DNA of 42,302 nt, taken from the IMG/VR virus record IMGVR_UViG_3300020215_000034, positions 1 through 42,302 of that record; one strand, written 5' to 3'. The stretch comes from a virus. The notes beneath the pieces were generated by a model. That model had not been told where the DNA came from. It was given only the letters and a program-made list of their open reading frames with translations, and did not search any database. The translations under genes were made by a program, and so were the position numbers. This document shows, in pieces, positions 13,326-42,302 of the stretch (position 1 is its first letter; every line of letters begins with the position of its first letter).

Positions 13326-13326
13326 G
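13301..13326. repeat. 26-bp direct repeat, left copy flanking the P63C moron
   Basis: TTACTGCGAGGTGATGGGG followed by GTGTGAG, matched at 14470..14495 by the same 19 bases followed by ACGTGAG (24 of 26 identical). This copy forms the 3' end of the tail gene. The bases outside the copies do not match, so the repeat ends sharply. Confidence 0.85.
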
Positions 13327-13347
13327 AAATACTTGCCCGGATAAGCA

Positions 13348-13376
13348 TTGACGATACGTGCTCGCTCAGGTATTGT
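13348..13376 (+). promoter_or_regulatory. Candidate sigma70-type promoter of the P63C gene
   Basis: TTGACG (13348-13353), a 17-base spacer and TATTGT (13371-13376) give a good -35/-10 pair in the 81-bp gap before the P63C gene. This gap is unique in the tail operon, where genes normally overlap. A strong Shine-Dalgarno, AAAGGAGG (13392-13399), follows. Independent transcription is typical of morons expressed from a prophage. Confidence 0.6.
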
Positions 13377-13406
13377 TCAGCCTGCCTATTGAAAGGAGGC
13401 TGAAGT

Positions 13407-14459
13407 ATGATGGATTCTAGCGAACACGCCAAAGCTCTGTCAGCCCTTGGTGCCAAGAAGGGGGGAGTGGCGCGAGCCAAAGCCTTAAGCGCGGAGGAGC
13501 GCAGTGCTATCGCGCGCGCGGCGGTATCGGCGCGATGGGAGAAGGCGGGCAAGCCTTCGGTAAAGGTGCGGCGTGCAACACATCACGGCGAACTGGCGAC
13601 CGGAGGAATTGAGTGTGCCGTGTTAGAGGATGGCACTCGCGTACTGAGTCGTACCGGGTTCCTGAAGGCAATCGGGCGTCAGGGAAAGGCGAAGGGTGGC
13701 CGGCGGTTTGATGATGAATCCAAGACCCCTGTATTTTTGACCGCAAACAACCTTAAACCGTTTATTACCAACGAGTTGTTAAGTAATTCAGCCCCCATTC
13801 CGTTTGTTGCGAAAAACGGGCTTCCTGCGATGGGGTATCGGGCAGAGCTGCTGCCGCAAGTTTGCAGAGTCTTTCTCGATGCTCGGCGCGCCAGCGCACT
13901 TCAGTCGAATCAAGAACACATCGCCGCTCAATGTGAAATCCTCGTTCAGGGCCTTGCCCAAGTCGGCATCATTGCGCTAGTGGACGAAGCTACTGGCTTC
14001 CAGTACGACCGTCCACGCAAAGACCTCGAAGAATTACTGAAGCGGTATTTGTCAGACAGCTTGCGCCGCTGGGTTCGCACATTCCCTTCGGATTACTTCA
14101 AGCATCTATGTCGGCTGCGCAACGTTGAAGTTCGTCCCGACATGCGGTTGCCGCGATACTTTGGAAAGCTGACCAACAACATTATCTACAAGCGGCTTGC
14201 GCCAGGCCTCTTGAGGCGTCTGAAGGAGCATCGGCAGGCCAAAGGGAAGGCAAGCGACAAGCTGCATTCGTGGTTAAGCGAGGACCGTGGATTTCCTGAG
14301 GTGCTGGTACATCTAGGCACCGTGGTAGGGCTCATGAAAATCCACACTGACTATGAGGCCTTCGAGAAGCAGTTGGACCAAGTCGCTCCAATGTATCCTG
14401 ACGAGCCGGGGCTGTTTGACGATCCAAGAGATTGGGATAGTAAGGACGCGGGAGAGTAG
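13407..14459 (+). CDS. P63C-domain protein (moron)
   Basis: A 350-residue protein. Residues ~18-46 hold the ARAKALSAEERSAIARAAVSARW motif-type helix pair often found in front of P63C and antirepressor-like proteins. Residues ~190-310 match the P63C domain: LVDEATGFQYDR, W..TFPSDYFKHLCRL, KLTNNIIYKRLAPGLL, then a C-terminal LVHLGTVVGLM segment. The domain's biochemical role is not established; it is found with phage and antirepressor modules. The gene has its own promoter, strong ribosome site and flanking duplicated repeats, all signs of a separately acquired cassette. Two adjacent ATGs (13407 and 13410) are possible starts. Confidence 0.85.
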   Translation: MMDSSEHAKALSALGAKKGGVARAKALSAEERSAIARAAVSARWEKAGKPSVKVRRATHHGELATGGIECAVLEDGTRVLSRTGFLKAIGRQGKAKGGRRFDDESKTPVFLTANNLKPFITNELLSNSAPIPFVAKNGLPAMGYRAELLPQVCRVFLDARRASALQSNQEHIAAQCEILVQGLAQVGIIALVDEATGFQYDRPRKDLEELLKRYLSDSLRRWVRTFPSDYFKHLCRLRNVEVRPDMRLPRYFGKLTNNIIYKRLAPGLLRRLKEHRQAKGKASDKLHSWLSEDRGFPEVLVHLGTVVGLMKIHTDYEAFEKQLDQVAPMYPDEPGLFDDPRDWDSKDAGE

Positions 14460-14855: not shown

Positions 14856-15042
14856 TGTGACGGAAACTGTGACGGTTTTTTGCCCTGCTGTGCTATCGTC
14901 GCGCGCGTCGAAGCCGAAAGCCTCCTATGAAGCACGCACATCTGTATTTCATCGACTGCCTAGGTAAAAGGTTTAGCGGACCGGTGCTAAGCCTTTTTCT
15001 TCTTAGGTAAGCGTCGCTGATTTGTGACGGTTCTTGTGACGG
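14856..15042. other. Candidate attP region with paired arm-type repeats
   Basis: TGTGACGG occurs four times in two tandem pairs with the same 12-base period: 14856 and 14868, then 15023 and 15035. The pairs bracket a ~150-bp non-coding stretch plus the 3' end of the integrase gene. Direct repeats of this kind beside an integrase gene are how arm-type integrase sites look in lambda-like attP regions. The core (crossover) sequence was not identified, and no tRNA fragment is visible in it. Confidence 0.5.
14966..14997. terminator. Bidirectional terminator-like hairpin at the integrase stop
   Basis: AAAAGGTTTAGC (14966-14977), loop GGACCGGT, then GCTAAGCCTTTT (14986-14997) form a 12-bp stem with one G-T mismatch. 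A T-rich tract (CTTTTTCTTCTT) follows on the plus strand; the A-run on the 5' side gives T's when read from the minus strand. The integrase stop codon lies in the 3' arm. It separates transcription of the two regions and also lies within the candidate attP core interval. Confidence 0.6.
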
Positions 15043-16099
15043 AACGCCCGAAATCGAGAGCCTTCAGCGCCTTGGAATCGCCTGTGATTCCGTACCCGAG
15101 GTAGTGCGCATGGGCGACCGCAAGGCTGTGACCGAAGTGATTTGCGTATTGAATCGTGCTCATGTGTGGAGCAGCTCGCATCGCTGCGGCTTGGCGCATC
15201 CGCTGGAACGTCACGATAGACGGCAAACGGTGCTCCTCGCGGAAGATCTGTAAATGCTGCGCCATTCCAGAAACGGTGAAGCCAACCACCGTCTCGCCTT
15301 CTTTCGGCATCTTCGGACGCATCTTCTTCAGCTCTTGCTCAGCCCATGGCGGCAGCTCAACAACGCGCTCGCGACGCTTCGCATACGCGCGCAGCCGGCG
15401 CTTATCAAAGTCGATGTCACTCCATTTCACGCGCTCGGCTTCAATCGGACGCAGCCCGACGCCAAGGCACAATACGATTGCACCCCACACTGCCGACTCA
15501 GGACCATGCGTTACCAGCGTCTTGATGTGCCCCTCCGCAATGCCGACCGGCTTGCGGCGTGGTATGTCGGGCGTGCGAATCAGGTGCTTGTTGATGGGGT
15601 TGGATTCCCACGGGACAAGATGACGCTGTATCAGCCACGAGCACAGCCGGGAGATTCGAGTCCGGTCGTTGCGGATCGTCTGCGGGTGCATCTCAGCTCG
15701 TAGCCTCGAATCTAAGAACTTCTGAACGATTGCAGCGAACTCGCGAACGGTCATCTGAGTTGGCATTATGCCGCCGTTCTCGGCGCAGAATTGCTTAAAC
15801 GTGCGGCGGTGGTCCTGAAAGCCTTTATGTCGGCTGCGCAGATGTTCGGGCCAGAGCGAGTCAAGGCACTGGTCGCAAAGGTCGCGCAAGGTCAGCGGCG
15901 CGAATCCTTCAGCGCGCATTGCCTTCTCAACGGCTTCGCTCGCCTTTCCCTTCGCCTCCGTCTCAATCGTGGTCTCAGTGGTATCGCGGAACCGCTTGCC
16001 CTTGAGATGGAAGTCGTACCACCACGGGCCCGTCTTCGAGCGTTTGCGCAGCGCGACCCACACCTGGCCGCGCTCTGTGCGGACGGGGAAGGAAGTCAT
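14987..16099 (-). CDS. int: Tyrosine recombinase / integrase
   Basis: A 370-residue site-specific recombinase that would integrate and excise the phage. Residues ~65-175 are the core-binding domain; ~185-340 are catalytic: R217 in GLRPIEAERV, a likely Lys at about 241, box II with R302, H324 (HFGHS) and the nucleophile Y333 (HYLGY). Spacings R-H (22) and H-Y (9) are canonical. The usual box II histidine (HxxR) is replaced by Gln299. Residues ~1-45 form an arm-binding-like N-terminal segment. The gene starts two bases after the repressor stop, so the two share a transcript. The gene's end is inside the repeat-bearing attP region. Confidence 0.93.
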   Translation of the reverse strand: MTSFPVRTERGQVWVALRKRSKTGPWWYDFHLKGKRFRDTTETTIETEAKGKASEAVEKAMRAEGFAPLTLRDLCDQCLDSLWPEHLRSRHKGFQDHRRTFKQFCAENGGIMPTQMTVREFAAIVQKFLDSRLRAEMHPQTIRNDRTRISRLCSWLIQRHLVPWESNPINKHLIRTPDIPRRKPVGIAEGHIKTLVTHGPESAVWGAIVLCLGVGLRPIEAERVKWSDIDFDKRRLRAYAKRRERVVELPPWAEQELKKMRPKMPKEGETVVGFTVSGMAQHLQIFREEHRLPSIVTFQRMRQAAAMRAAPHMSTIQYANHFGHSLAVAHAHYLGYGITGDSKALKALDFGRSVTRTVTNQRRLPKKKKA

Positions 16100-16101
16100 G
16101 G

Positions 16102-17043
16102 TTAGCCGATGTTCTTCGGGCTGCGCATGATCTCGCGTACGATGCCAATGATGCGTAGGCGGTGCTCGGCAAGAATCTCAATACTCTTTACTTGCGGGTT
16201 ATCGCTGCGCAGTGCGATGCGGAAGCCGGTGGATTTCTTATGCTGGACCTCAATGCGCTTCACCACGGCATCAAGCGCGTCGTCGTCCAGGAGTGCGATA
16301 ACCACCTCGCCATCTAATGCGAGCCATGGCTTCGGGTCAGCAGCGCCGCGGTCTTCATCGAGTGGCGGCAGATACAAGTTGTAGTGCTGCACAACAAGCC
16401 GGTCGCCTTCCTGCATCGTGGGGTACATCGAGCGCCCGACGAACTTCAGGATGAAGTGATTGGCGCGCGAATACTTCACATCTGCCGCCTCGGTTTCCGC
16501 GACCATCGGCACGCCAGAGCCAACCGCGAGCGCATTCGCGGCAGCTCGCAACTCAGGCTGTGGCAGCGCCTGAGTCTTCGGCGGCGCGGCAATCGACCGC
16601 ACGTCAAAATCCTTCGACTTCAGTTTCATGCCCTTCATAGCTTGCCAAGCCTCCACAGGTTGCGACTGGACCTTAGACGCGGGTTTCGCGCTCTCCCCTT
16701 CGGTCTTAACTTTTCGTGGCATAGGTAACGCTCGAATCATCTGAAGAACGGCCGCGTCTTGGCGCGGCTCGAACTCACGAACTGCGGCTAGGACCTCTTG
16801 CTCTCCCTCGGACACTGCAGTTTCGCCGAACGCTAGCCATGCTGGCTGAACGCCCATAGCCTCGGCAATGCGCTGTAAATCCCACAGGTCCGGCAGCCCC
16901 TTTCCATCTTGGTTCCACGAATAAAGGGTGTCCTGACCGATACCCGTTTTTCGCGCGATTTCCGTTCTAGGGATGCCGGAACGCAGCCTTTTATAAAACG
17001 CCTCGCGGAGCTTTTTTTTCGATTCGTTGTCCGGCTGAGCCAT
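16102..17043 (-). CDS. CI-type repressor with HTH and S24 autoprotease
   Basis: The 313-residue protein has an N-terminal XRE-type helix-turn-helix (residues ~14-72, including SGIPRTEIARKTGIGQDTLYSW). A Pro/Lys-rich linker follows, then a LexA/UmuD-type S24 peptidase domain at ~170-313. The catalytic serine is S205 (FVGRSMYPT) and the lysine K262 (DAVVKRIE). A likely cleavage region (ALAVGSG) lies about 30 residues before S205. It should keep lysogeny by repressing the divergent early promoter and lose activity after RecA-dependent self-cleavage. Start ATG 17043 is preferred over GTG 17058. The integrase follows directly. Confidence 0.9.
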   Translation of the reverse strand: MAQPDNESKKKLREAFYKRLRSGIPRTEIARKTGIGQDTLYSWNQDGKGLPDLWDLQRIAEAMGVQPAWLAFGETAVSEGEQEVLAAVREFEPRQDAAVLQMIRALPMPRKVKTEGESAKPASKVQSQPVEAWQAMKGMKLKSKDFDVRSIAAPPKTQALPQPELRAAANALAVGSGVPMVAETEAADVKYSRANHFILKFVGRSMYPTMQEGDRLVVQHYNLYLPPLDEDRGAADPKPWLALDGEVVIALLDDDALDAVVKRIEVQHKKSTGFRIALRSDNPQVKSIEILAEHRLRIIGIVREIMRSPKNIG

Positions 17044-17064
17044 AACCTCAATGTGCACGCATAC

Positions 17065-17088
17065 TTAGAAATATCCAGATATTTCGAA
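17065..17088. promoter_or_regulatory. Candidate repressor operator
   Basis: GAAATATC-CA-GATATTTC is a perfect 8-bp inverted repeat (17068-17085) extended by TT and AA on each side with one mismatch. It is an AT-rich island in a GC-rich genome, centred between the divergent repressor and early genes. Size and symmetry fit a dimer site for a CI/Cro-type HTH protein. A second, shorter dyad (ATACCG...CGGTAT, 17103-17122) overlaps the early promoter. Confidence 0.6.
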
Positions 17089-17177: not shown

Positions 17178-17363
17178 ATGACTGAAGTCGCAATGACTGA
17201 CGCTCAGAAACGACTGAGCGAACTAGCGAACCGCGCCCGCTATGGGCGCGAAGAGTTCATCTTGACCAGCCACGGTGAACCGATGGCAAAGCTCGTTCCG
17301 TGTGGGGGAGGGGAGCATGGGAAGACCAAGGAAGGGCGTCGAAAACCTCGCGCAACAGCGTGA
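17178..17363 (+). CDS. Phd/YefM-type antitoxin-like protein in the cro position
   Basis: The frame is open from 17109, but the protein starts naturally at ATG 17178, giving 61 residues. It matches the Phd/YefM N-terminal fold: short strand, helix (DAQKRLSELANRAR), then FILTSHGEPMAKLVP. In these proteins this domain binds DNA and the C terminus binds a Doc, RelE or similar toxin. No toxin gene is nearby, and the C-terminal part is only a Gly/Lys tail overlapping the next gene by 47 bases. As first gene of the early operon it could act as a Cro-like regulator or be an anti-toxin against host systems. Confidence 0.65.
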   Translation: MTEVAMTDAQKRLSELANRARYGREEFILTSHGEPMAKLVPCGGGEHGKTKEGRRKPRATA

Positions 17364-20404: not shown

Positions 20405-20409
20405 CAGAT

Positions 20410-20486
20410 TCGGGGAGAGCGGTTCCGTTGTCGGCACCCCTCCCCCTCGACGCGAACGGGCCTCCCACCCCGCGCGCTCTCCCCGA
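20410..20486 (+). ncRNA. Structured intercistronic RNA element 2 (candidate)
   Basis: The gap 20405-20508 contains a perfect 12-bp long-range inverted repeat, TCGGGGAGAGCG (20410-20421) and CGCTCTCCCCGA (20475-20486). Inside it, CCGTT-GTCG (20425-20433) pairs with CGAC-GCG-AACGG (20448-20459), leaving a 3-base bulge. The outer helix opens five bases after the stop codon and ends just before CTTTCAAAGGAG, the next gene's ribosome site. Confidence 0.45.
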
Positions 20487-20508
20487 GTAACTTTCAAAGG
20501 AGCAAGAC

Positions 20509-28253: not shown

Positions 28254-28400
28254 TTGCGATTTAACGAGCGCGGGCAGCGAAACGGCTAAACGGGCGGGCT
28301 GAGCCATAAAACGCGCCCAGGATGCGCAGGAATTGAAATGCGGGGCATTGGACAGCGAGGGCAAGACATGGGAACGCCGGGAGATGTGTGCTAATGAAAT
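28254..28400. other. Non-coding stretch before the tRNA-like gene
   Basis: About 147 bases between the preceding stop and the tRNA-like gene. Only very short reading frames are visible, and no clear promoter or hairpin stands out. It probably holds the 3' end of the replication transcript and the tRNA leader. Confidence 0.4.
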
Positions 28401-28476
28401 GCGCAGATGTTGCAAGGGTAGCATACCCGCTATTCCACGCGGGAGATGGCGGTTCGATTCCGACCTCTGCGCTCCA
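28401..28476 (+). tRNA. Degenerate tRNA-Gly (TCC)
   Basis: A 76-base cloverleaf: acceptor GCGCAGA pairing with TCTGCGC, discriminator T, encoded CCA, D-arm TTGC-AAGGGTA-GCAT (one mismatch), anticodon stem CCCGC/GCGGG, variable AGAT, T-arm GGCGG-TTCGATT-CCGAC (one mismatch). The anticodon loop is eight bases (TATTCCAC), with TCC most likely, and there is one extra C before the acceptor 3' strand. It is therefore a diverged or specialised tRNA-Gly. Confidence 0.7.
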
Positions 28477-28486
28477 GCTTCGTGTT

Positions 28487-28957
28487 GTGGAAATTGAGTT
28501 AGAGCGTGCGCGGGATTTGGTTCGGCTGTGGCATTCGCGACTGCCAGAAACGGATAAAGGAAACTTGGTGCGCAACACGTACTGTGTTTGTTACGGCGCA
28601 GAATACGACGGCCTTTTTTATGCAGCGGCCATCTGGACAAGCCCAGTTGCGCGTCTCTTGAGCAATCCGCACACGATAGAGCTACGCCGGTTAGCAATGG
28701 CATCGGATGCACCAAAGAATCTAGCTTCACGAATGCTGCGAATAATGGCGCTGCTGCTCGCCAAAAAGCATCCAAAAGTAGGCTTAATGATTTCCTACCA
28801 AGATACGGCAGTGCATCGGGGCACGATTTACAAGGCCGCTGGATGGCGGGCCGTGGCAACCAATAGAAGCGCGACAACATGGAATATGCCAAATCGTCAG
28901 AGAATCGAAACGCAATCGAGCGCATTAAAGATTCGATGGGAAAAGCAAATTAGCTGA
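28487..28957 (+). CDS. Mom-like GNAT-family DNA modification protein
   Basis: The open frame starts at 28388, but that part is the tRNA read as protein. GTG 28487 is the first sensible start, giving 156 residues. The sequence has the Mom pattern: a YGAEYDG-type strand, IELRRLAMASDAPKNLASRMLRIM (acyl-CoA-site region and helix), then VGLMISYQDTAVHRGTIYKAAGWRAV. Mu Mom makes the DNA modification methylcarbamoyl-adenine, giving protection from host restriction. It starts 11 bases after the tRNA-like gene. The role is inferred from family. Confidence 0.65.
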   Translation: MEIELERARDLVRLWHSRLPETDKGNLVRNTYCVCYGAEYDGLFYAAAIWTSPVARLLSNPHTIELRRLAMASDAPKNLASRMLRIMALLLAKKHPKVGLMISYQDTAVHRGTIYKAAGWRAVATNRSATTWNMPNRQRIETQSSALKIRWEKQIS

Positions 28958-32710: not shown

Positions 32711-32744
32711 TTGACAGAAAACGTCACACGTACAGAAAATGTAC
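32711..32744 (+). promoter_or_regulatory. Candidate promoter with overlapping TACA dyad upstream of winged-helix gene
   Basis: TTGACA (32711-32716), 18 bases, then GAAAAT (32735-32740), a weak -10. It overlaps the dyad GTACA-GAAAA-TGTAC (32730-32744), which resembles the GTACAGAACTGTAC elements downstream. The gap to 32864 (about 160 bases) also contains GGCG-AAAC-CGCC hairpin-like sequence at about 32792. This is the largest promoter-like gap before the packaging genes. Confidence 0.45.
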
Positions 32745-32864
32745 AGCGTAAAAATTTTCTTGGGTCCTTCCCGGCGATAGACACATCGGAGGCGAAACCG
32801 CCGCAGTGTCAGGATACTTAAGGTCCGAAATAGATGTAAAAAGCATTTACTGGGAGTCAAAAGC

Positions 32865-33122
32865 ATGAATAACGGCTTGATGCCATTGGGTTTAAAGAAT
32901 AAGCCCCGCGTGTCATCGGAGTATCACCGGACGTTCATTCGCAACTTTCTAGTTAAGAGTCCTGGAATCGAGTTCTGCGAGTTGCGGGCGATGACGAAGA
33001 TGACAGACGGGAACCTTTATCATCACCTACGGGTAATGCTTAACGAGGGTGAAATCGAGTTCGTTAAGACCGGAGCGGGACGAGGCAGCAAGACAACGAT
33101 TTGGCTAAAGAAGAACGGTTAA
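32865..33122 (+). CDS. Winged-helix transcription regulator
   Basis: An 85-residue protein. Residues ~25-80 match a small winged helix of the ArsR/PF13601 type: FIRNFLVKSPGIEFCELRAMTKMTDGNLYHHLRVMLNEGEIEFVK, then the GRGSKTTIWL wing. It lies at the start of the packaging and head block after a promoter-like gap that carries a TACAG dyad. A role in late transcription control is likely, but no target is proven. Confidence 0.75.
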   Translation: MNNGLMPLGLKNKPRVSSEYHRTFIRNFLVKSPGIEFCELRAMTKMTDGNLYHHLRVMLNEGEIEFVKTGAGRGSKTTIWLKKNG

Positions 33123-34534: not shown

Positions 34535-36351
34535 GTACCGCCACCCTCGAACTCGACCCGCGCGTCTTTGCGCGCCCTGCGTTGATGCCGCCCGTGTCCG
34601 AATGGGCGGAAGAGACGATGCGCTTTGACCCCGCGGTGGACGTGTCGCCGCGCTATGTCATCGCGAAGGCGCCCTACGCGCGTGCGGTGTTCGAGTGGTG
34701 GGCAGACAAGAACATCGAGGAAATCTTCCTGCTGATGCCAACGCAGGCTGGCAAAACCGCGATGATTAACACGCTCATCGGCTACTGCATCGCTAATGAC
34801 CCCGGCCCGTGCATGTTCGTGCAGGCGGACGAAACGAACGTGAAGGCGTTCGTGCAGAAGCGGCTCAAGCCGGCGCTGCGGAAGACCTTCCCCAAGCTCG
34901 TCAGCGAAAACCCGCGCGACGACAAATGGACCGAGGACAAAGGCGCGGTGATTGGCGGACTGGACCTGTGGATAGCGTGGGCGACATCCGAAAGCCGTCT
35001 GCGCTCGTGGCCGCGCCGGTACATCTTCGGGGACGAAACAAGCCTGTGGAAGCATCCGCGCTCGCTCGCATGGGAGCGCACCAAGCAATTCCAGCGCAAT
35101 CGTAAGGGACTGTGGGCAACGACACCCACGGTTGAAGACGAAGAGAGCTGGCAGGCAGCCACGGGCTTGTATCAACTTCACCGCTGGTGGGTGCCCTGTC
35201 CGCATTGCGGCGCCTTCCAGATCCTTGACTTCGAGCGCATCCAGTTCAAAGACTGCAAGGGCGCGAACGGCTGGGACCTTGACCGCGTGGAGGCGGAAGC
35301 CTGGTATCAATGCCTGCACTGCGACGGGCGTATCGAGAATCACCACCGGCAGGAAATGCTTGAAGCCGGCGAGGCGCGCACCGAGCACCCCGAGCGCAGC
35401 CGCAAGCGCGTAAGCCTGCGAATCACAGCCCATGACGTGCCGAACATGACGTGGGGCGGCATCGCGCGGAAGTTCCTCGAATCGAAAGACGCGCCGGACG
35501 ACCTGCGAACATTCGTCAATGGCTGGCTCGTGAAGCCGTGGAAGCCCGACATCAAGGTTGTCGCCGCGGAAGAGATTCTAAAGCGCAGCGTGGGTACGCC
35601 AGAAGGCACAGCGCCCGCGGATACCGCGTTCCTTATCGGCACCATTGACGTTCAGCAGCACCACGTTTGGGCAGCCGTGTACGCCTTCCAGAAAGACCGC
35701 CGGGTAACGCTGGTGCGCGCGCGCCGCGTAGACGGCGAAGGCAGCACGCCACGGGCGCTCGAACGGGCGTGGGATGAAGTGATGGCGGTGGAGTATCCCG
35801 TCGCCGGCGAAAGCGAGCCGCGGCGCGTGTCGGTGGTTGGCGTGGACTCCGGCTATGCTACCGATGACGTTTACCTGTTCTGCATGAAGCACGCCGGCTG
35901 CATTCCGCTCAAAGGTCGCGACAGTGACAGCCTGACGAACTCATGGACCAGCTCGCACATCGACCGTTACGCCAATGGAAAGCCGATACCGGGAGGACTG
36001 CGGCTTTACATCGTCTCTACCGCAAGGTGGCGCGAGCACGTGCTGCTATCCCACACGCGACCGCTTGACGAACCGGGCGCCTGGTTAGTTCACGAGAATT
36101 GCAGCCCTGAGTATGCGCAACACCTTACGAGTTGGACGAAACGTGTAGTGAAGCTGAAAGACGGGCGCACGCGCGAAGAGTGGTTTCAGGCAAAGCCAGA
36201 CGACCACTTACTCGACGACGCAATCTACGCCGCGTGCATCTTCGAAATCATGGGCGGTCGGAAACTGGAATTAAGTGGCGAGCAGGACCGGCATAAGCCA
36301 AGGCGCCCCGCCAGCGTGACGGGCATTGGCTCTATTCGCCGGAATTATTAG
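34507..36351 (+). CDS. Terminase large subunit (lambda gpA-like)
   Basis: A 614-residue packaging motor. Residues ~77-84 hold Walker A (MPTQAGKT), ~170-177 Walker B (RRYIFGDE), and a zinc site CPHC/CLHC at ~231 and ~269. The nuclease domain carries acidic residues D381 (GTIDVQQ), D447 (VVGVDSGY) and D570/571 (DDHLLDDA). This is the gpA form used to cut and pump concatemeric DNA. It overlaps the end of the preceding gene by 28 bases. A gpA-type terminase often makes cohesive ends, so a cos site is possible, but none was found. Confidence 0.95.
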   Translation: MASLGQNSLSTATLELDPRVFARPALMPPVSEWAEETMRFDPAVDVSPRYVIAKAPYARAVFEWWADKNIEEIFLLMPTQAGKTAMINTLIGYCIANDPGPCMFVQADETNVKAFVQKRLKPALRKTFPKLVSENPRDDKWTEDKGAVIGGLDLWIAWATSESRLRSWPRRYIFGDETSLWKHPRSLAWERTKQFQRNRKGLWATTPTVEDEESWQAATGLYQLHRWWVPCPHCGAFQILDFERIQFKDCKGANGWDLDRVEAEAWYQCLHCDGRIENHHRQEMLEAGEARTEHPERSRKRVSLRITAHDVPNMTWGGIARKFLESKDAPDDLRTFVNGWLVKPWKPDIKVVAAEEILKRSVGTPEGTAPADTAFLIGTIDVQQHHVWAAVYAFQKDRRVTLVRARRVDGEGSTPRALERAWDEVMAVEYPVAGESEPRRVSVVGVDSGYATDDVYLFCMKHAGCIPLKGRDSDSLTNSWTSSHIDRYANGKPIPGGLRLYIVSTARWREHVLLSHTRPLDEPGAWLVHENCSPEYAQHLTSWTKRVVKLKDGRTREEWFQAKPDDHLLDDAIYAACIFEIMGGRKLELSGEQDRHKPRRPASVTGIGSIRRNY

Positions 36352-36363
36352 GGGGCGGGGCTG

Positions 36364-36801
36364 ATGAACTTACGGCTAGAGCTTAACATGGACGCGGAGG
36401 CAGAAAAGCATGGCGATATTGTACGCGTGCTCTATGCGAAAGAGGTTGGGTGGCATGGCGAACTCGCCAACGAATGGGATATGTACGTTCTCGCAGCGAT
36501 GGCAGACGGCCCCCTTAGCTACAAGGAATTGCAGTCATTGAATGAGAGTGTCAGTCCTAGCCTAATCGATTGGACACTCCAATACCTCGACATTCTGGCG
36601 GAAATTGATTGTCGTGGCGCTATTAATTGGCCGAAGGTAAAGCTGTCCTACTTTGAGACTTCAGAGCGCGGCATCAGGCGCTTGCAGGCTAACGGGATTC
36701 ACTTCTCGGAAATGACCGAAACGAAGGCGCAAATAAGACTGCGAAGGGCGATTGTGGAAAATCGGGCGTTTGGCCAGTGGTTATACAATTGGGGGCATTA
36801 A
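36364..36801 (+). CDS. Hypothetical winged-helix-like protein inserted between terminase and connector
   Basis: A 145-residue protein, AT-richer than the terminase, with an ADGPLSYKELQSLNESVSPSLI segment and a beta ISER-like wing region (YFETSERGIRRLQANGI). Weakly resembles a winged helix. It breaks the usual terminase-connector order. It may be a recently acquired accessory gene. Confidence 0.6.
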   Translation: MNLRLELNMDAEAEKHGDIVRVLYAKEVGWHGELANEWDMYVLAAMADGPLSYKELQSLNESVSPSLIDWTLQYLDILAEIDCRGAINWPKVKLSYFETSERGIRRLQANGIHFSEMTETKAQIRLRRAIVENRAFGQWLYNWGH

Positions 36802-36851
36802 ACAAGTAGCGCGGGCAAAAAACAAAACGGGGGTGGGGAAAGGCATGGATT

Positions 36852-37097
36852 GTGGCTAAGGGCAACAAGCAGCAGACGGCAGTGGTTTCCATGGTGAAGC
36901 CTGTCATTGTTCAGGCAATCGTTGAGGCTGCGATTATTAAGCACGAGACGCGCAAGCAGGGAGTCGGGCATAAATGCTCGTACTGCGGGAGCCTGAATAC
37001 CTACGTTTGCAGCACACGGGCTCATCCCTATGTCATCACGCAGCGCATTCGCCGGTGCCGCTGCAACGACTGCCAGAAGCCATTTAAAGCGGTATAG
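36852..37097 (+). CDS. Zinc-ribbon protein (NrdR/ogr-like style)
   Basis: GTG 36852, with GGGGAAAGG upstream, gives 81 residues: a short hydrophobic helix, then CSYCGSLNTYVCSTRAHPYV and RRCRCNDCQ, a CxxC...CxxC ribbon with an Arg-rich turn, resembling NrdR or ogr-type zinc ribbons that bind DNA. Its stop is the first base group of the conserved dyad at 37095. It may regulate late genes. Confidence 0.65.
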   Translation: MAKGNKQQTAVVSMVKPVIVQAIVEAAIIKHETRKQGVGHKCSYCGSLNTYVCSTRAHPYVITQRIRRCRCNDCQKPFKAV

Positions 37098-37130
37098 GGT
37101 ACAGAACTGTACACCGGCTTATTGCTTCAG
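37095..37130 (+). promoter_or_regulatory. Conserved TAG-TACAG-AA-CTGTA element, copy 1
   Basis: Starting at the stop codon TAG of the zinc-ribbon gene, GGGTACAGAACTGTACACC contains a perfect inverted repeat GTACAG-AA-CTGTAC (37099-37112). Twenty-eight of 36 bases match the element after the portal gene (38958-38993). A regulator-binding site, phage-specific promoter or RNA element are all possible. Confidence 0.6.
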
Positions 37131-37135
37131 ATGAA

Positions 37136-37171
37136 TTGCGCCGCACTCTACTGTTACGGAGTGGCGCGCAA
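37136..37171 (+). promoter_or_regulatory. Hairpin covering the ribosome site of the gpW-position gene
   Basis: TTGCGC (37136-37141) pairs with GCGCAA (37166-37171) and CACTC (37144-37148) with GAGTG (37159-37163), with a small internal loop. The Shine-Dalgarno GGAG (37158-37161) and the A of the ATG are inside the stem. This would slow translation unless opened by a ribosome or regulator. Confidence 0.4.
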
Positions 37172-37446
37172 TGGCTCTCACATCAAGCAGCACAGAAACC
37201 GAAGCGTGGAATCAGTACTACGACAACGTAGACGGCTGGCGCGATAGCACGACAAAAATGAGCGCCATGATTGCCGCGATGGAATGGCTTATCGCGCGCA
37301 ACCGCCCAGATTCCATGTCCGTGTCGGGTCGCAACGTCGTCAACTCGGCGATGTTCAAGGACCTGTACATCGACGTTAAGAAACACGTCGAGTTTGTGGC
37401 TGGCGCGTCACGAAGAACAAACTTCGTGAGGATGCGCCCCCTGTGA
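37171..37446 (+). CDS. gpW-like head-tail connector candidate
   Basis: A 91-residue helical protein directly before the portal, the place lambda gpW has. It has helix patterns (SSTETEAWNQYYDNVDGWRDST, then AAMEWLIARNR) and a basic C terminus. gpW binds the portal and closes the packaged head for tail attachment. Assignment rests on size, helicity and position. The portal's GTG overlaps its stop. Confidence 0.55.
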   Translation: MALTSSSTETEAWNQYYDNVDGWRDSTTKMSAMIAAMEWLIARNRPDSMSVSGRNVVNSAMFKDLYIDVKKHVEFVAGASRRTNFVRMRPL

Positions 37447-38960
37447 CCCCACCCATCAAACGCGGCGCATATACCGCCCTCGGCTATCGTGCGGCTCAAA
37501 TCGAACGTTCCAGCGGACGCCCACAGGCAACCGGCGGAAGTGCTGACTACCATCTGCGCTATGACCGAGAAGACCTCGTTCAGCAGTCGCAGGCATTCGA
37601 CCGCGACAATGCAATTTTTGAAGGTCTCGCCAACCGTGCTGCCGACAACATTCTCGGACACGGCTTCAAGCTCCAGGCGCAGACCTCCAGCGAGGAAGTA
37701 AACAAGCAGCTTGAGCAGCTTTGGGCGGAATGGTCCGAAGCACCGGAAGTTCGCGAGCTGGATACATTCTGGCAAATTGAGCGGCTGGTGCTGCGCGCGC
37801 TGATGGTGGACGGCGACATCGGCGCCATCAAAACCAGCGACGGAAAGATTCAGCTCATCGAGTCGGAGCGTGTCGCGTACCGCTCGCAGGTATCTGACAA
37901 CAAAGAGAACCGCGTTGAGCAGGGTGTCGAGCTGGACAAGCTCGGGCGCCCCGTTCGCTTTTGGATTGCCGACTACAACCGTTTCGGAAACCTGTCGCGC
38001 TCGAAGTATACGCCGATAAACGCGTCAGATTTTATTTTCATTGCGAACCGCAAGCGCGCCTCTCAGACGCGCGGCGTTCCCGTTCACGTGTCGTCCTTTC
38101 CAATGATTCATCGCATCAACGACGTGTGCGACTCGGAAGCCGTCGCGTGGCAGATTCTCGCGCGCTACGCCATCATCGTTACCCGCAACAAAGGCGCGGA
38201 GCAGGCATATCTCGAAACCACTGCGGACAGCGATGCGCCGGCGAATAGCGGCAGTGAGCAGCGCCCCGACCGCGTTCAAGACCAGGGACCGGACCGCTTC
38301 AGCGAGGGGGCTATTGCCTTCCACGGCGAAGAAGGCGAAGACCTGAAAGCGGTGGAGCACAACCTGCCCGGCGCAAACTTCCCTGAATCCATCCGTATGT
38401 TCCTGCGCCTTATCGGGCTGCCGTTCGGCCTGCCGCTAGAGCTTATCCTGCTCGATTTCTCACAGACGAATTACAGCAGCGCGCGCGCCTCGCTGGAGCA
38501 GGCATACCGCAATTTCCAGTGCTGGCAGCGGTTGCTTAAGCAGAAATGGCACGCGCCGCTTTACCGCTGGAAGGTTCAACAGTGGATTGCGGAAGGCAAG
38601 ATTAAGAGCGCGCCCGCGGACGTTCTCAAACACGACTGGATTGCACCGAAATTCCCGTGGGTGGACCCGTTCAAAGAAGCGCAGGCGTGGAAGCACATCA
38701 TCGGCACCGGCCTGTCAACGCACGCCGAAGCCCTTGCAAGCCGCGGGCAGGATTACGACGACTGGCGCGCCCAGCGACAGAAAGAAATCGTTGGCGCCGT
38801 CAGAGCTGCGCAAGAAGTGGAAAAGACGACAGGCGTCAAAGTGCCGTGGGAACTTCTCGCTGGATTGGAAGTGGCAAAAGCGGAAATGCCAGCGGACCCG
38901 GCGGAGAGTACCGAGAAAGACGAAGACGCGGAGTCCGAGAAACGGCAAAAGCCGAAATAG
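37443..38960 (+). CDS. Portal protein (lambda gpB-like)
   Basis: GTG 37443, 505 residues. Features of lambda-type portals: an early AFDRDNAIFEGLANRAADNILG segment, a WAEWS motif (residues ~98-102), the RALMVDGDIGAI helix, and a helical stem with FSQTNYSSARASLEQAYRNFQ (~345-365). It forms the dodecameric vertex ring through which DNA enters. It follows gpW-position gene and precedes the protease. A 3' tail is Glu/Lys-rich. Confidence 0.92.
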   Translation: MTPPIKRGAYTALGYRAAQIERSSGRPQATGGSADYHLRYDREDLVQQSQAFDRDNAIFEGLANRAADNILGHGFKLQAQTSSEEVNKQLEQLWAEWSEAPEVRELDTFWQIERLVLRALMVDGDIGAIKTSDGKIQLIESERVAYRSQVSDNKENRVEQGVELDKLGRPVRFWIADYNRFGNLSRSKYTPINASDFIFIANRKRASQTRGVPVHVSSFPMIHRINDVCDSEAVAWQILARYAIIVTRNKGAEQAYLETTADSDAPANSGSEQRPDRVQDQGPDRFSEGAIAFHGEEGEDLKAVEHNLPGANFPESIRMFLRLIGLPFGLPLELILLDFSQTNYSSARASLEQAYRNFQCWQRLLKQKWHAPLYRWKVQQWIAEGKIKSAPADVLKHDWIAPKFPWVDPFKEAQAWKHIIGTGLSTHAEALASRGQDYDDWRAQRQKEIVGAVRAAQEVEKTTGVKVPWELLAGLEVAKAEMPADPAESTEKDEDAESEKRQKPK

Positions 38961-38993
38961 GTTACAGAACTGTACCCCGACCCATTGTCACAG
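38958..38993 (+). promoter_or_regulatory. Conserved TAG-TACAG-AA-CTGTA element, copy 2
   Basis: Begins at the portal's TAG stop: GGTTACAGAACTGTACCCC (38961-38978 region), with the TACAG-AA-CTGTA core at 38963-38974 and then ACCCATTG. It aligns with copy 1 from the stop codon on. It lies in the 39-60 bases before the protease start. Confidence 0.6.
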
Positions 38994-39020
38994 GATTAGT
39001 TGAAGGCGATTAATACCAGC

Positions 39021-40271
39021 ATGACGAATGTCGCTTTACAACCCGCTGCCAAACTGCGCATCACTGCGCTCCGCAGCGCCCCGTTGCGAGTGGACCGCGA
39101 AGCGCGTGTTATCAACGGCTATGCCGTCATCACTCGTGGCGAGGCGTTGGGTCACGGGATGTGGATTGACAAGGAAATGCTTTCCGCCGTGGTCGCCGCC
39201 GGCAACGCGAAGGCGAACGGCATTAAGTCGCGCTTTACGCATCCGGGGCTGTGCGCCGATGGTATGGGCAAGTACCTCGGGCGCTCCAAGAATTTCCGCC
39301 TTGATGGCGACACGGTTCGCGCCGACCTGCATATCGCGCCCGTTTCCGACGCCTCCCCCGATGGCCGGCTTGGCTCGTACGTGCTGGACCTCGCGGAAGA
39401 AGACCCCGAGAGCTTCGGCGCATCTATCGTGTTCGCGCGGGACGCAGATGCAGAGGACAAGTTCATCGAATCCGCTGGCGGAAAAGTCGTTTACGACGAG
39501 TGGTGTGGTCGAATAATTCAGGACTTCAAGAGTCCTGACCCGCTAAACACGGAAAACCTTCCGCACGCCCGACTCAGCGTGATGACTGCCTCGGATGTCG
39601 TCGATGAGCCGGCGGCGAACCCCAACGGCTTCTTTTCCAGCGGCGATGAGTTTGCCTCGCGTGCTGAGTCCGCCCTGCGCTTCATTTTCGGAATCGACCA
39701 GAACGCCACGCCGGAACTGTTCGGCGCTATCGCGCCAGAGCGCGCCAAAACCTTCGTGAATGGATTTTTAGCCCGACATGGCTTGTCGGTCGGAAAGGAA
39801 TCAGCGATGCCCGCGAAACTCGAAGACGGCAAGTGTGAACCCGAAGACAAGAAGCCGGAAGTGACCGAGGGCGAGAAGAAGCCCGACGAGAAAAAGGAAG
39901 ATGAGGCGATGAGCACGCTGAAAGTCGCGACGCTCGCCGAACTCGAAGCCAAGTTCAGTGACCCCGCTTTCGTTCTCGCCCAGCTCAAAGCCGGCGCGAC
40001 GATGGAGCAGGCGGAACTCGCGTGGAAGGACAAGCAGATTGCCGACCTCCAGGCTGAGAACGCCAAGCTGAAGGCGAACCAGAAAGCGCCCGGTGCCGAG
40101 CCGGTTACGTTCGCGAACACCGCCGCGGGCGAAGGCACGAGCAAGAAAGACTTCCTCGAAGTCTCCAAGGAATACGCGGCTGAGCATAAGGTGCCGCTGA
40201 GCAAGGCGATGAGCGCGTGCGCGTCGCTGCACCCCGAACTGTTCAAAGCCTACAAGGCGAAGAAGAACTAA
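39021..40271 (+). CDS. Prohead protease fused to a scaffold domain
   Basis: ATG 39021 gives 416 residues; a TTG at 39000 with AGGA upstream is an alternative. Residues ~1-210 resemble a phage maturation protease: VINGYAVITRGEALG start, FTHPG with H74, and EDPESFGASIVF with the likely Ser at 131. Residues ~260-340 are Lys/Glu/Asp-rich and ~330-370 are coiled-coil (WKDKQIADLQAENAKLKANQ), as scaffold regions are. Proteases of this form cut the scaffold and coat proteins while the head matures. Class (U35 or lambda gpC-like) is not certain. Confidence 0.75.
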   Translation: MTNVALQPAAKLRITALRSAPLRVDREARVINGYAVITRGEALGHGMWIDKEMLSAVVAAGNAKANGIKSRFTHPGLCADGMGKYLGRSKNFRLDGDTVRADLHIAPVSDASPDGRLGSYVLDLAEEDPESFGASIVFARDADAEDKFIESAGGKVVYDEWCGRIIQDFKSPDPLNTENLPHARLSVMTASDVVDEPAANPNGFFSSGDEFASRAESALRFIFGIDQNATPELFGAIAPERAKTFVNGFLARHGLSVGKESAMPAKLEDGKCEPEDKKPEVTEGEKKPDEKKEDEAMSTLKVATLAELEAKFSDPAFVLAQLKAGATMEQAELAWKDKQIADLQAENAKLKANQKAPGAEPVTFANTAAGEGTSKKDFLEVSKEYAAEHKVPLSKAMSACASLHPELFKAYKAKKN

Positions 40272-40945: not shown

Positions 40946-40954
40946 GCCAAGGAA

Positions 40955-40993
40955 TTGAGCGAGCGGGGGCGGTCCCCGTCCTCGTTCGCTCGA
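40955..40993 (+). promoter_or_regulatory. Hairpin between decorator and coat protein genes
   Basis: GAGCGA (40957-40962) pairs with TCGCTC (40986-40991), and CGGGG (40964-40968) with CCCCG (40974-40978) around GCGGT. It is not followed by a T-run, so it is not a standard terminator. It may be an RNA stability or processing hairpin that helps raise coat protein expression, as found before other coat genes. Confidence 0.45.
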
Positions 40994-41027
40994 TAAAAGA
41001 TTCGGGGACAGTTTAGGAGCTGACACA

Positions 41028-41998: not shown

Positions 41999-42032
41999 AA
42001 GGGACGCCGTGAAGGTCTAGCGGCGTCCCTTT
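41999..42032 (+). terminator. Rho-independent terminator after the coat protein
   Basis: AAGGGACGCCG (41999-42009), 11-base loop, CGGCGTCCCTT (42021-42031), an exact 11-bp stem, then TTCCCT. Strong terminator or processing site at the end of the head module; genes downstream would need read-through or a new promoter. Confidence 0.75.
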
Positions 42033-42064
42033 CCCTACAACTCAAGACGAGAGGCTTGCGCGCA

Positions 42065-42302
42065 ATGAAACGGTTTTTCATGTGTTTCGCGGCGGTGATT
42101 CTGAGTGCGCAGGCATTCGCAGCCGCCGACTACGACTTCAAGGCGGAAAAGACGCCCTGGATGGTTATCACGGTCGCGACCAGCGGCGTGAAGAACGTCC
42201 TGATTCCCGACCACGACATCACCATCGTTCATTTGAACGTTCAAAGCGACGGCTCTACAGCGAGCGCGGCGACGGACAAGGTTTGGATTATGCGAAACCA
42301 GA
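42065..42302 (+). CDS. Small exported protein, N-terminal part (continues at 1..327)
   Basis: ATG 42065 with GAGAGG upstream opens a frame that runs off the window end and continues in frame at base 1 to 327. The whole protein is 145 residues, starting MKRFFMCFAAVILSAQAFAA, a good Sec signal peptide, then a small beta-rich mature part. It directly follows the coat protein terminator. It may be an exported or virion-surface protein. First of three genes with signal peptides in this region. Confidence 0.85.
   Translation, partial: MKRFFMCFAAVILSAQAFAAADYDFKAEKTPWMVITVATSGVKNVLIPDHDITIVHLNVQSDGSTASAATDKVWIMRNQ
42176..42302. repeat. Terminal direct repeat, right copy (circular contig overlap)
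   Basis: Identical to 1..127. See the left copy. It lies inside the exported-protein gene, with no interruption of its frame when the ends are merged, which supports circular joining at this point. Confidence 0.9.

Follow-up and report, generated by a model that had tools for sequence, protein, structure and literature searches.

Palindromic repeats behind the stop codons of two head-region genes in a temperate phage as possible operator-like sites

Two copies of a 36-base element were observed in the head-gene region of a temperate phage genome. Each is opened by the in-frame TAG stop codon of the upstream ORF (37095-37097 and 38958-38960) and holds the same palindromic core. We tentatively read the two elements as operator-like sites for a dimer of a phage regulator, in a stoperator-like arrangement with one related site at a promoter and these two at downstream gene boundaries, and we give this reading somewhat less than even confidence. 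In more general terms, the element is a genuine feature of limited weight, most likely either a small control site or a gene boundary that was copied.

The window (the whole stretch of DNA analyzed, 42,302 nucleotides of IMG/VR record IMGVR_UViG_3300020215_000034) is the genome of a temperate phage, called temperate because an integrase (14987-16099, minus strand) and an S24-type repressor (16102-17058, minus strand) are encoded in it. The genome was considered closed due to a 127-bp terminal direct repeat (bases 1-127 are the same as 42176-42302) and a second record, IMGVR_UViG_3300021061_000093, which spans the join of both ends. This second record is 100 % identical over 13.5 kb and starts at 32791, inside the long non-coding gap upstream of the packaging genes. 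The head module is lambda-like, and the head and packaging genes encode the small and large terminase subunits, a lambda-family portal, a head scaffolding-type protein and the major capsid protein. Several small helix-turn-helix proteins are also encoded by the phage, and non-coding DNA represents 7 % of the genome. A promoter-like sequence (TTGACG-17-TATTGT) was observed at 13326-13406, upstream of a P63C-domain protein gene (13407-14459) that adjoins the integrase gene and is possibly expressed from the prophage. At 20405-20508, a long inverted repeat (TCGGGGAGAGC ... GCTCTCCCCGA) fills most of a 104-base gap. A Mom-like DNA modification protein (phrog_1384) is encoded at 28388-28957, where a borderline Rfam tRNA match (29.3 against 29) was also obtained without confirmation by ARAGORN.

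Copy 1 of the element (37095..37130, plus strand) begins with the stop codon of an ORF for an 81-aa zinc-ribbon protein (36852..37097, plus strand), followed by the dyad GTACAGAACTGTAC, ACCG, ATTG and CAG. Copy 2 (38958..38993, plus strand) begins with the stop codon of the portal protein gene of the lambda family (37443..38960, plus strand), followed by the dyad TTACAGAACTGTAC, CCCG, ATTG and CAG. The portal gene is preceded by a 91-aa gene (37171..37446, plus strand), which corresponds by position only to a gpW-like head joining gene. The gene after copy 2 (39000..40271, plus strand) occupies the prohead protease/scaffold position and is common to relatives. The distance from the end of the dyad to the next start codon is about 58 bases in copy 1 and about 24-25 bases in copy 2, where the start is TTG.

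When the two copies were compared directly, 28 of 36 bases agreed, confirming the two TAG-led elements that the first-pass annotation had reported at 37095 and 38958. Both copies have the same orientation and lie in short intergenic gaps. The inverted repeat, described earlier as perfect or near-perfect, indeed has 6-bp arms in copy 1 (GTACAG-AA-CTGTAC, 37099..37112, no strand assigned) and 5-bp arms in copy 2 (TTACAG-AA-CTGTAC, 38962..38975, likewise without strand); the arms of copy 2 are one bp shorter through a single G/T change. The copies share an identical 13-bp core holding TACAG-AA-CTGTA. As all 8 differences fall outside this core, with no more than 15 matches over the 23 flank positions, the palindrome is the most constrained part. 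Beyond it the likeness is asymmetric, with TAGG on one side and CCG..ATTG..CAG on the other. Exact matches to TACAGAACTGTA, with no mismatch, are found in the whole genome only at 37100-37111 and 38963-38974.

Among stop-anchored sequences the pair is a clear outlier. When 36-mers starting at the stop codons of 68 gene ends were compared with each other (2278 pairs), the observed pair scored 28, the next best pair 21 and the mean was 10.8 (sd 2.7). The chance of 28 of 36 is about 8e-9 per pair and 1.7e-5 when corrected over the 2278 pairs, the list of 68 genes having been compiled manually from the ORF table and the comparison devised once the pair had been noticed. If the 127-bp terminal repeat is set aside, no other dyad of at least 12 bp is repeated in the 42.3 kb. 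The bare 12-mer with mismatches allowed is not enriched (8 sites, 6.1 expected). A chance resemblance of the two elements would find support in dyads of this size being common (40 in the genome with 5-bp arms and a 2-base spacer). In addition, 36-mers agreeing at 28 or more bases were found at two places in the genome, this pair being one, and the other pair likewise reaches 28 of 36. However, both copies are intergenic and have an equal offset from the stop codon and an equal orientation, and given the corrected probability of the stop-anchored test we consider chance very unlikely. A graded scan of the genome gave no weaker members of the family, the next best site matching 16 of 28 fixed positions.

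A related dyad, GTACA-GAAAA-TGTAC (32730..32744, no strand assigned), lies over the -10 of a promoter-like sequence (TTGACA-18-GAAAAT, 32711..32740, plus strand, 10 of 12 consensus bases) upstream of the gene for an 85-aa winged-helix protein (32865..33122, plus strand; HTH_34, 4.3e-7). It ranks first among the promoter-like matches of the late region and precedes both the winged-helix gene and the packaging genes. The earlier claim of a variant overlapping a promoter before 32865 thus stands as far as presence and overlap with the -10 are concerned, GTACAGAAAATGTAC having been confirmed at 32730-32744. However, its GTACA/TGTAC arms are 5 bases apart instead of the 4 in the pair, which keeps it from being just another copy of the element, and its dyad class is at expectation (3 GTAC-N4-9-GTAC dyads found against about 4 by a simple arithmetic expectation). 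The pair was linked to this site by the motif TACAGAA[A/C], which occurs three times only (0.83 expected), always in intergenic DNA, with the third and last copy on the -10 at 32730. A direct repeat (ACAGAAAACGT / ACAGAAAATGT, 18 bp apart) extends over the -35 to the -10 (32714..32742, plus strand), the second ACAGAAAACGT being placed over the -35, 18 bp upstream of the 32730 copy. As judged from sequence, the layout at 32730 is the usual one for a promoter operator.

In the mechanism that we propose, a dimeric phage-encoded DNA-binding protein would recognize the palindrome GTACAG-AA-CTGTAC on double-stranded DNA in the head-gene operon, and a related site with the same half-site GTACAGAA lies on the -10 of the promoter-like sequence at 32711. 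Occupancy of the promoter site at 32711 would block initiation, and occupancy of the two sites right behind the stop codons would block passing RNA polymerase. This roadblock model is taken after the mycobacteriophage stoperators, which silence a prophage; for the present phage we infer that a protein binds, which protein this is and how transcription responds. Since no promoter was found behind the copies, the sites are more likely to act on passing polymerase, or to be inert.

The operator reading is supported by an intergenic core that has two-fold symmetry and is perfectly conserved, by a pair far beyond chance and by the third half-site copy on the -10 of a promoter-like site. The temperate lifestyle and the several small helix-turn-helix proteins also speak in its favour. 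It is opposed by the number of exact copies, which is two with no weaker relatives in a graded scan, by an asymmetric flank likeness beyond what a pure protein site requires, and by the absence of the element from all relatives compared, none of which is close. The spacing of the promoter-proximal dyad also differs from that of the pair, and differing arm spacing is not tolerated by many dimeric regulators. The winged-helix protein at 32865 is the first candidate for the binder, followed by the XRE-type proteins at 17275 and 17535. An unassigned 145-aa protein encoded at 36364..36801 (plus strand), with GC below that of its neighbours, gave a very weak HxlR-like winged-helix match. In the case of the S24 repressor, a perfect palindrome with 8-bp arms (GAAATATC-CA-GATATTTC, 17068-17085) is located directly upstream of its gene, is unique in the genome and is likely a CI-type operator. 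Because this presumed operator is different and unique, another protein would bind the element pair, and the CI-type repressor was rejected as the binder since its gene-proximal dyad GAAATATCCAGATATTTC is unrelated and unique.

The first-pass annotation had suggested operators bound by the winged-helix regulator or by an NrdR-like zinc ribbon. The operator-like symmetry and the link of the core to the promoter-like site of 32865 were retained; the zinc ribbon at 36852 was not retained as binder. It resembles NrdR in being a zinc ribbon with paired cysteines but differs in scoring 15.7 bits against the NrdR zinc-ribbon model, below the Pfam cut-off of 27.2, and in its length, as 81 aa are too short to hold the NrdR ATP-cone, for which no match was obtained. 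No Ogr/Delta match was found up to a limit of E = 10. The structure model made from the single sequence shows a beta hairpin and had no match with E < 1 in the PDB, with TFIIS-type ribbons among the best. We therefore rejected the protein as NrdR or Ogr, and on this evidence it is a poor candidate binder. A more specific form of the operator reading is that palindromic roadblock sites behind stop codons silence or tune the head genes and are bound by a small winged-helix protein, which would in addition regulate the promoter of its own gene. Such a stoperator-like system with a symmetric site would be independent of the immunity repressor and lie outside the mycobacteriophages; we regard this form as improbable.

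Two further functions were weighed for the dyads. As the first-pass annotation also proposed, they could be phage-specific promoters in which the dyad is an activator site, like the P2-like late promoters under Ogr; P2 Ogr/Delta is a small zinc-binding protein with a dyad near the late genes. A TTG is found equally distant behind the dyad in both copies (TTGCTT and TTGTCA) and a zinc-ribbon protein is encoded directly upstream of copy 1. However, neither a sigma-70-like hexamer pair of at least 9 of 12 nor a sigma-54 site was found behind either copy, no phage RNA polymerase or sigma gene was recognized among the proteins scanned, and the dyad of copy 2 leaves only about 24-25 bases to the next TTG start. 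The phage also departs from P2 in that the 36852 product has no Ogr/Delta match and the dyads no promoter-like site behind them, and a literature search combining Ogr and dyad symmetry returned nothing. The promoter reading was rejected on the sigma-70 and sigma-54 scans; a promoter of another type may be present, but phage-specific promoters seem quite unlikely overall. Slightly less remote, and still unlikely, is a small RNA hairpin right behind the stop codon (GGUACA-GAAC-UGUAC-CC), with a role in antitermination, mRNA processing or the coupling of translation. The region around copy 1 gave a more stable fold than any of 200 shuffles (z -3.2), other strong intergenic hairpins are present in the late operon (40950-40995 and 41999-42034), and the 32730 variant would take a boxB-like shape (GUACA-GAAAA-UGUAC, 5-bp stem and GAAAA loop). 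Yet most of the fold strength at copy 1 comes from a second hairpin at 37135-37172, copy 2 is weak (-3.4 kcal/mol alone, region z -1.6), and the sole stem difference (G/T) breaks a pair without compensation. Moreover, boxA-like words are at chance level with none adjoining the sites, and Rfam gave no match at the elements. A lambda-type nut site (boxA and boxB) was not recognized either, as there is no adjacent boxA and the hairpins are weak. A conserved RNA hairpin was rejected on the weakness of copy 2 and the uncompensated stem change. A DNA site is favoured over RNA since the hairpins are weak as RNA (-7.2 and -3.4 kcal/mol) and the stem change is uncompensated, and a symmetric conserved core with differing flanks is more in keeping with a protein dimer on DNA than with RNA. 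Translation continuing through the TAG codons was also rejected: the 8 differences fall at codon positions 2,1,2,1,2,1,2,3, which gives no sign of a conserved translated extension. The hairpin at 37135..37172 (plus strand) in the leader of the 37171 gene is imperfect, with 14-bp arms (86 % paired), and translation of that gene may be restrained because the hairpin includes some of the ATG and what is likely the Shine-Dalgarno site. The hairpin at 40950-40995 (19 bp, -33.7 kcal/mol) lies in the 82-base gap preceding the major capsid gene and may set capsid expression via processing or partial termination. The one at 41999-42034 (12 bp, -22.8 kcal/mol), directly behind the capsid gene and followed by TTTCCC, is terminator-like.

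The main rival to the operator reading has no regulatory role: the elements would be an imperfect direct repeat of 36-40 bp that flanks a two-gene cassette (37171 and the portal gene). Such a repeat would originate from a duplication, or from linker recombination during exchange of the cassette or of the neighbouring extra genes (36364 and 36852). We hold this rival as possible, though on balance unlikely. It would explain a likeness that starts at the same stop codon and passes the dyad on both sides (15 of 23 flank positions matching, P about 9e-5). The two genes preceding copy 1, for which no relatives were found, have a GC of 0.51-0.55, compared with 0.59-0.62 in the terminase, portal and capsid genes, as would be expected if they were extra genes that had been inserted. 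Module exchange has been proposed to proceed through short boundary sequences (PMC3029335), and gene 60 of YungJamal is flanked by imperfect 24-bp repeats (PMC4351075). However, at the flank rate (65 % identity) an intact 13-bp core would be left by neutral decay in about 0.4 % of cases (0.65 to the 13th power, the core being chosen post hoc), and this intact core is the strongest argument against a purely passive duplicate. The rival also leaves unexplained the third TACAGAA copy on a promoter-like site, and no comparable flanking pair was found in 138 other terminase-portal loci, the best being a GC-rich 26 of 36.

Absence from relatives with conserved gene order had been named in the first-pass annotation as evidence against the element, and the element is indeed absent. 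Neither the dyad nor a comparable repeated stop-associated dyad was found in 48 capsid relatives, many of which share the gene order. The 138 terminase-portal loci likewise have no comparable pair on the two sides of the portal gene, and the element is missing from an Acidobacteriota locus of identical gene order (capsid 39-41 %). This comparison is not decisive because only distant relatives are present in the collections: protein identities of the nearest range over 25-47 %, with at best 33 % (terminase), 42.5 % (portal, of L327) and 47 % (capsid). The portal gene of L327 overlaps its downstream neighbour, without any gap between the two. At the DNA level, 36340-39340 had no match in annotated phages and plasmids, and a 21-base pattern of the element was found in the identical record only. 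The dyad GTACAGAACTGTAC occurs in at least 120 IMG/VR stretches, with one match per contig among the matches listed; among those checked, one stretch shares a protein with the window (single-strand binding protein). TACAGAACTGTACNCC was found in 22 contigs. When the identical record is set aside, 19 of its 21 matches are inside open frames, none of the 21 lies behind a stop codon and none shares head proteins. By these sequence comparisons, the element is not part of the ancient head module.

In general kind the element is already known: it is a small repeat specific to the phage, with a putative function. The Cluster A stoperators (L5, Bxb1) are asymmetric 13-mers present in about 24-34 copies and bound by the immunity repressor, and in the stoperator model an operator at the promoter is joined by further sites at downstream gene boundaries in one orientation (PMC3029335, PMC5712189). 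The pair resembles them in that the sites are short and intergenic, face one way with respect to transcription, belong to a temperate phage and have a related dyad over a promoter-like sequence. It differs in being palindromic and in having two copies and one variant instead of about 24 or more, and its binder would presumably differ as well, since the palindrome upstream of the S24 repressor gene is another one. We therefore suggest that the pair may work like stoperators and do not identify it as stoperators. Cluster O mycobacteriophages (Corndog) carry 17-bp dyad repeats, built of 7-bp arms around a 3-bp spacer, in more than 30 copies per genome, and these are conserved in five phages (PMC4351075). 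They are likewise phage-specific, perfectly dyad-symmetric and intergenic in many copies (PMC4351075), whereas here there are two copies and no relative carrying the element was found. The start-associated sequences (SAS/ESAS) of Cluster K mycobacteriophages lie 3-7 bp upstream of the start codons of non-structural genes and have a Shine-Dalgarno core, with inverted repeats in ESAS (PMC3203893). They too are repeats tied to gene boundaries, but the present elements begin at stop codons among the head genes, their dyads ending some 24 and 58 bases ahead of the next start codon.

Repeated phage-specific boundary sites are known from a few well-sampled phage groups, and among the systems compared a role is demonstrated for the Cluster A stoperators only. 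The feature described here is a small one, plausibly regulatory or recombination-derived. A symmetric, stop-associated pair around the portal gene of a phage whose head module is lambda-like would be a compact test case for elongation control inside a late operon.
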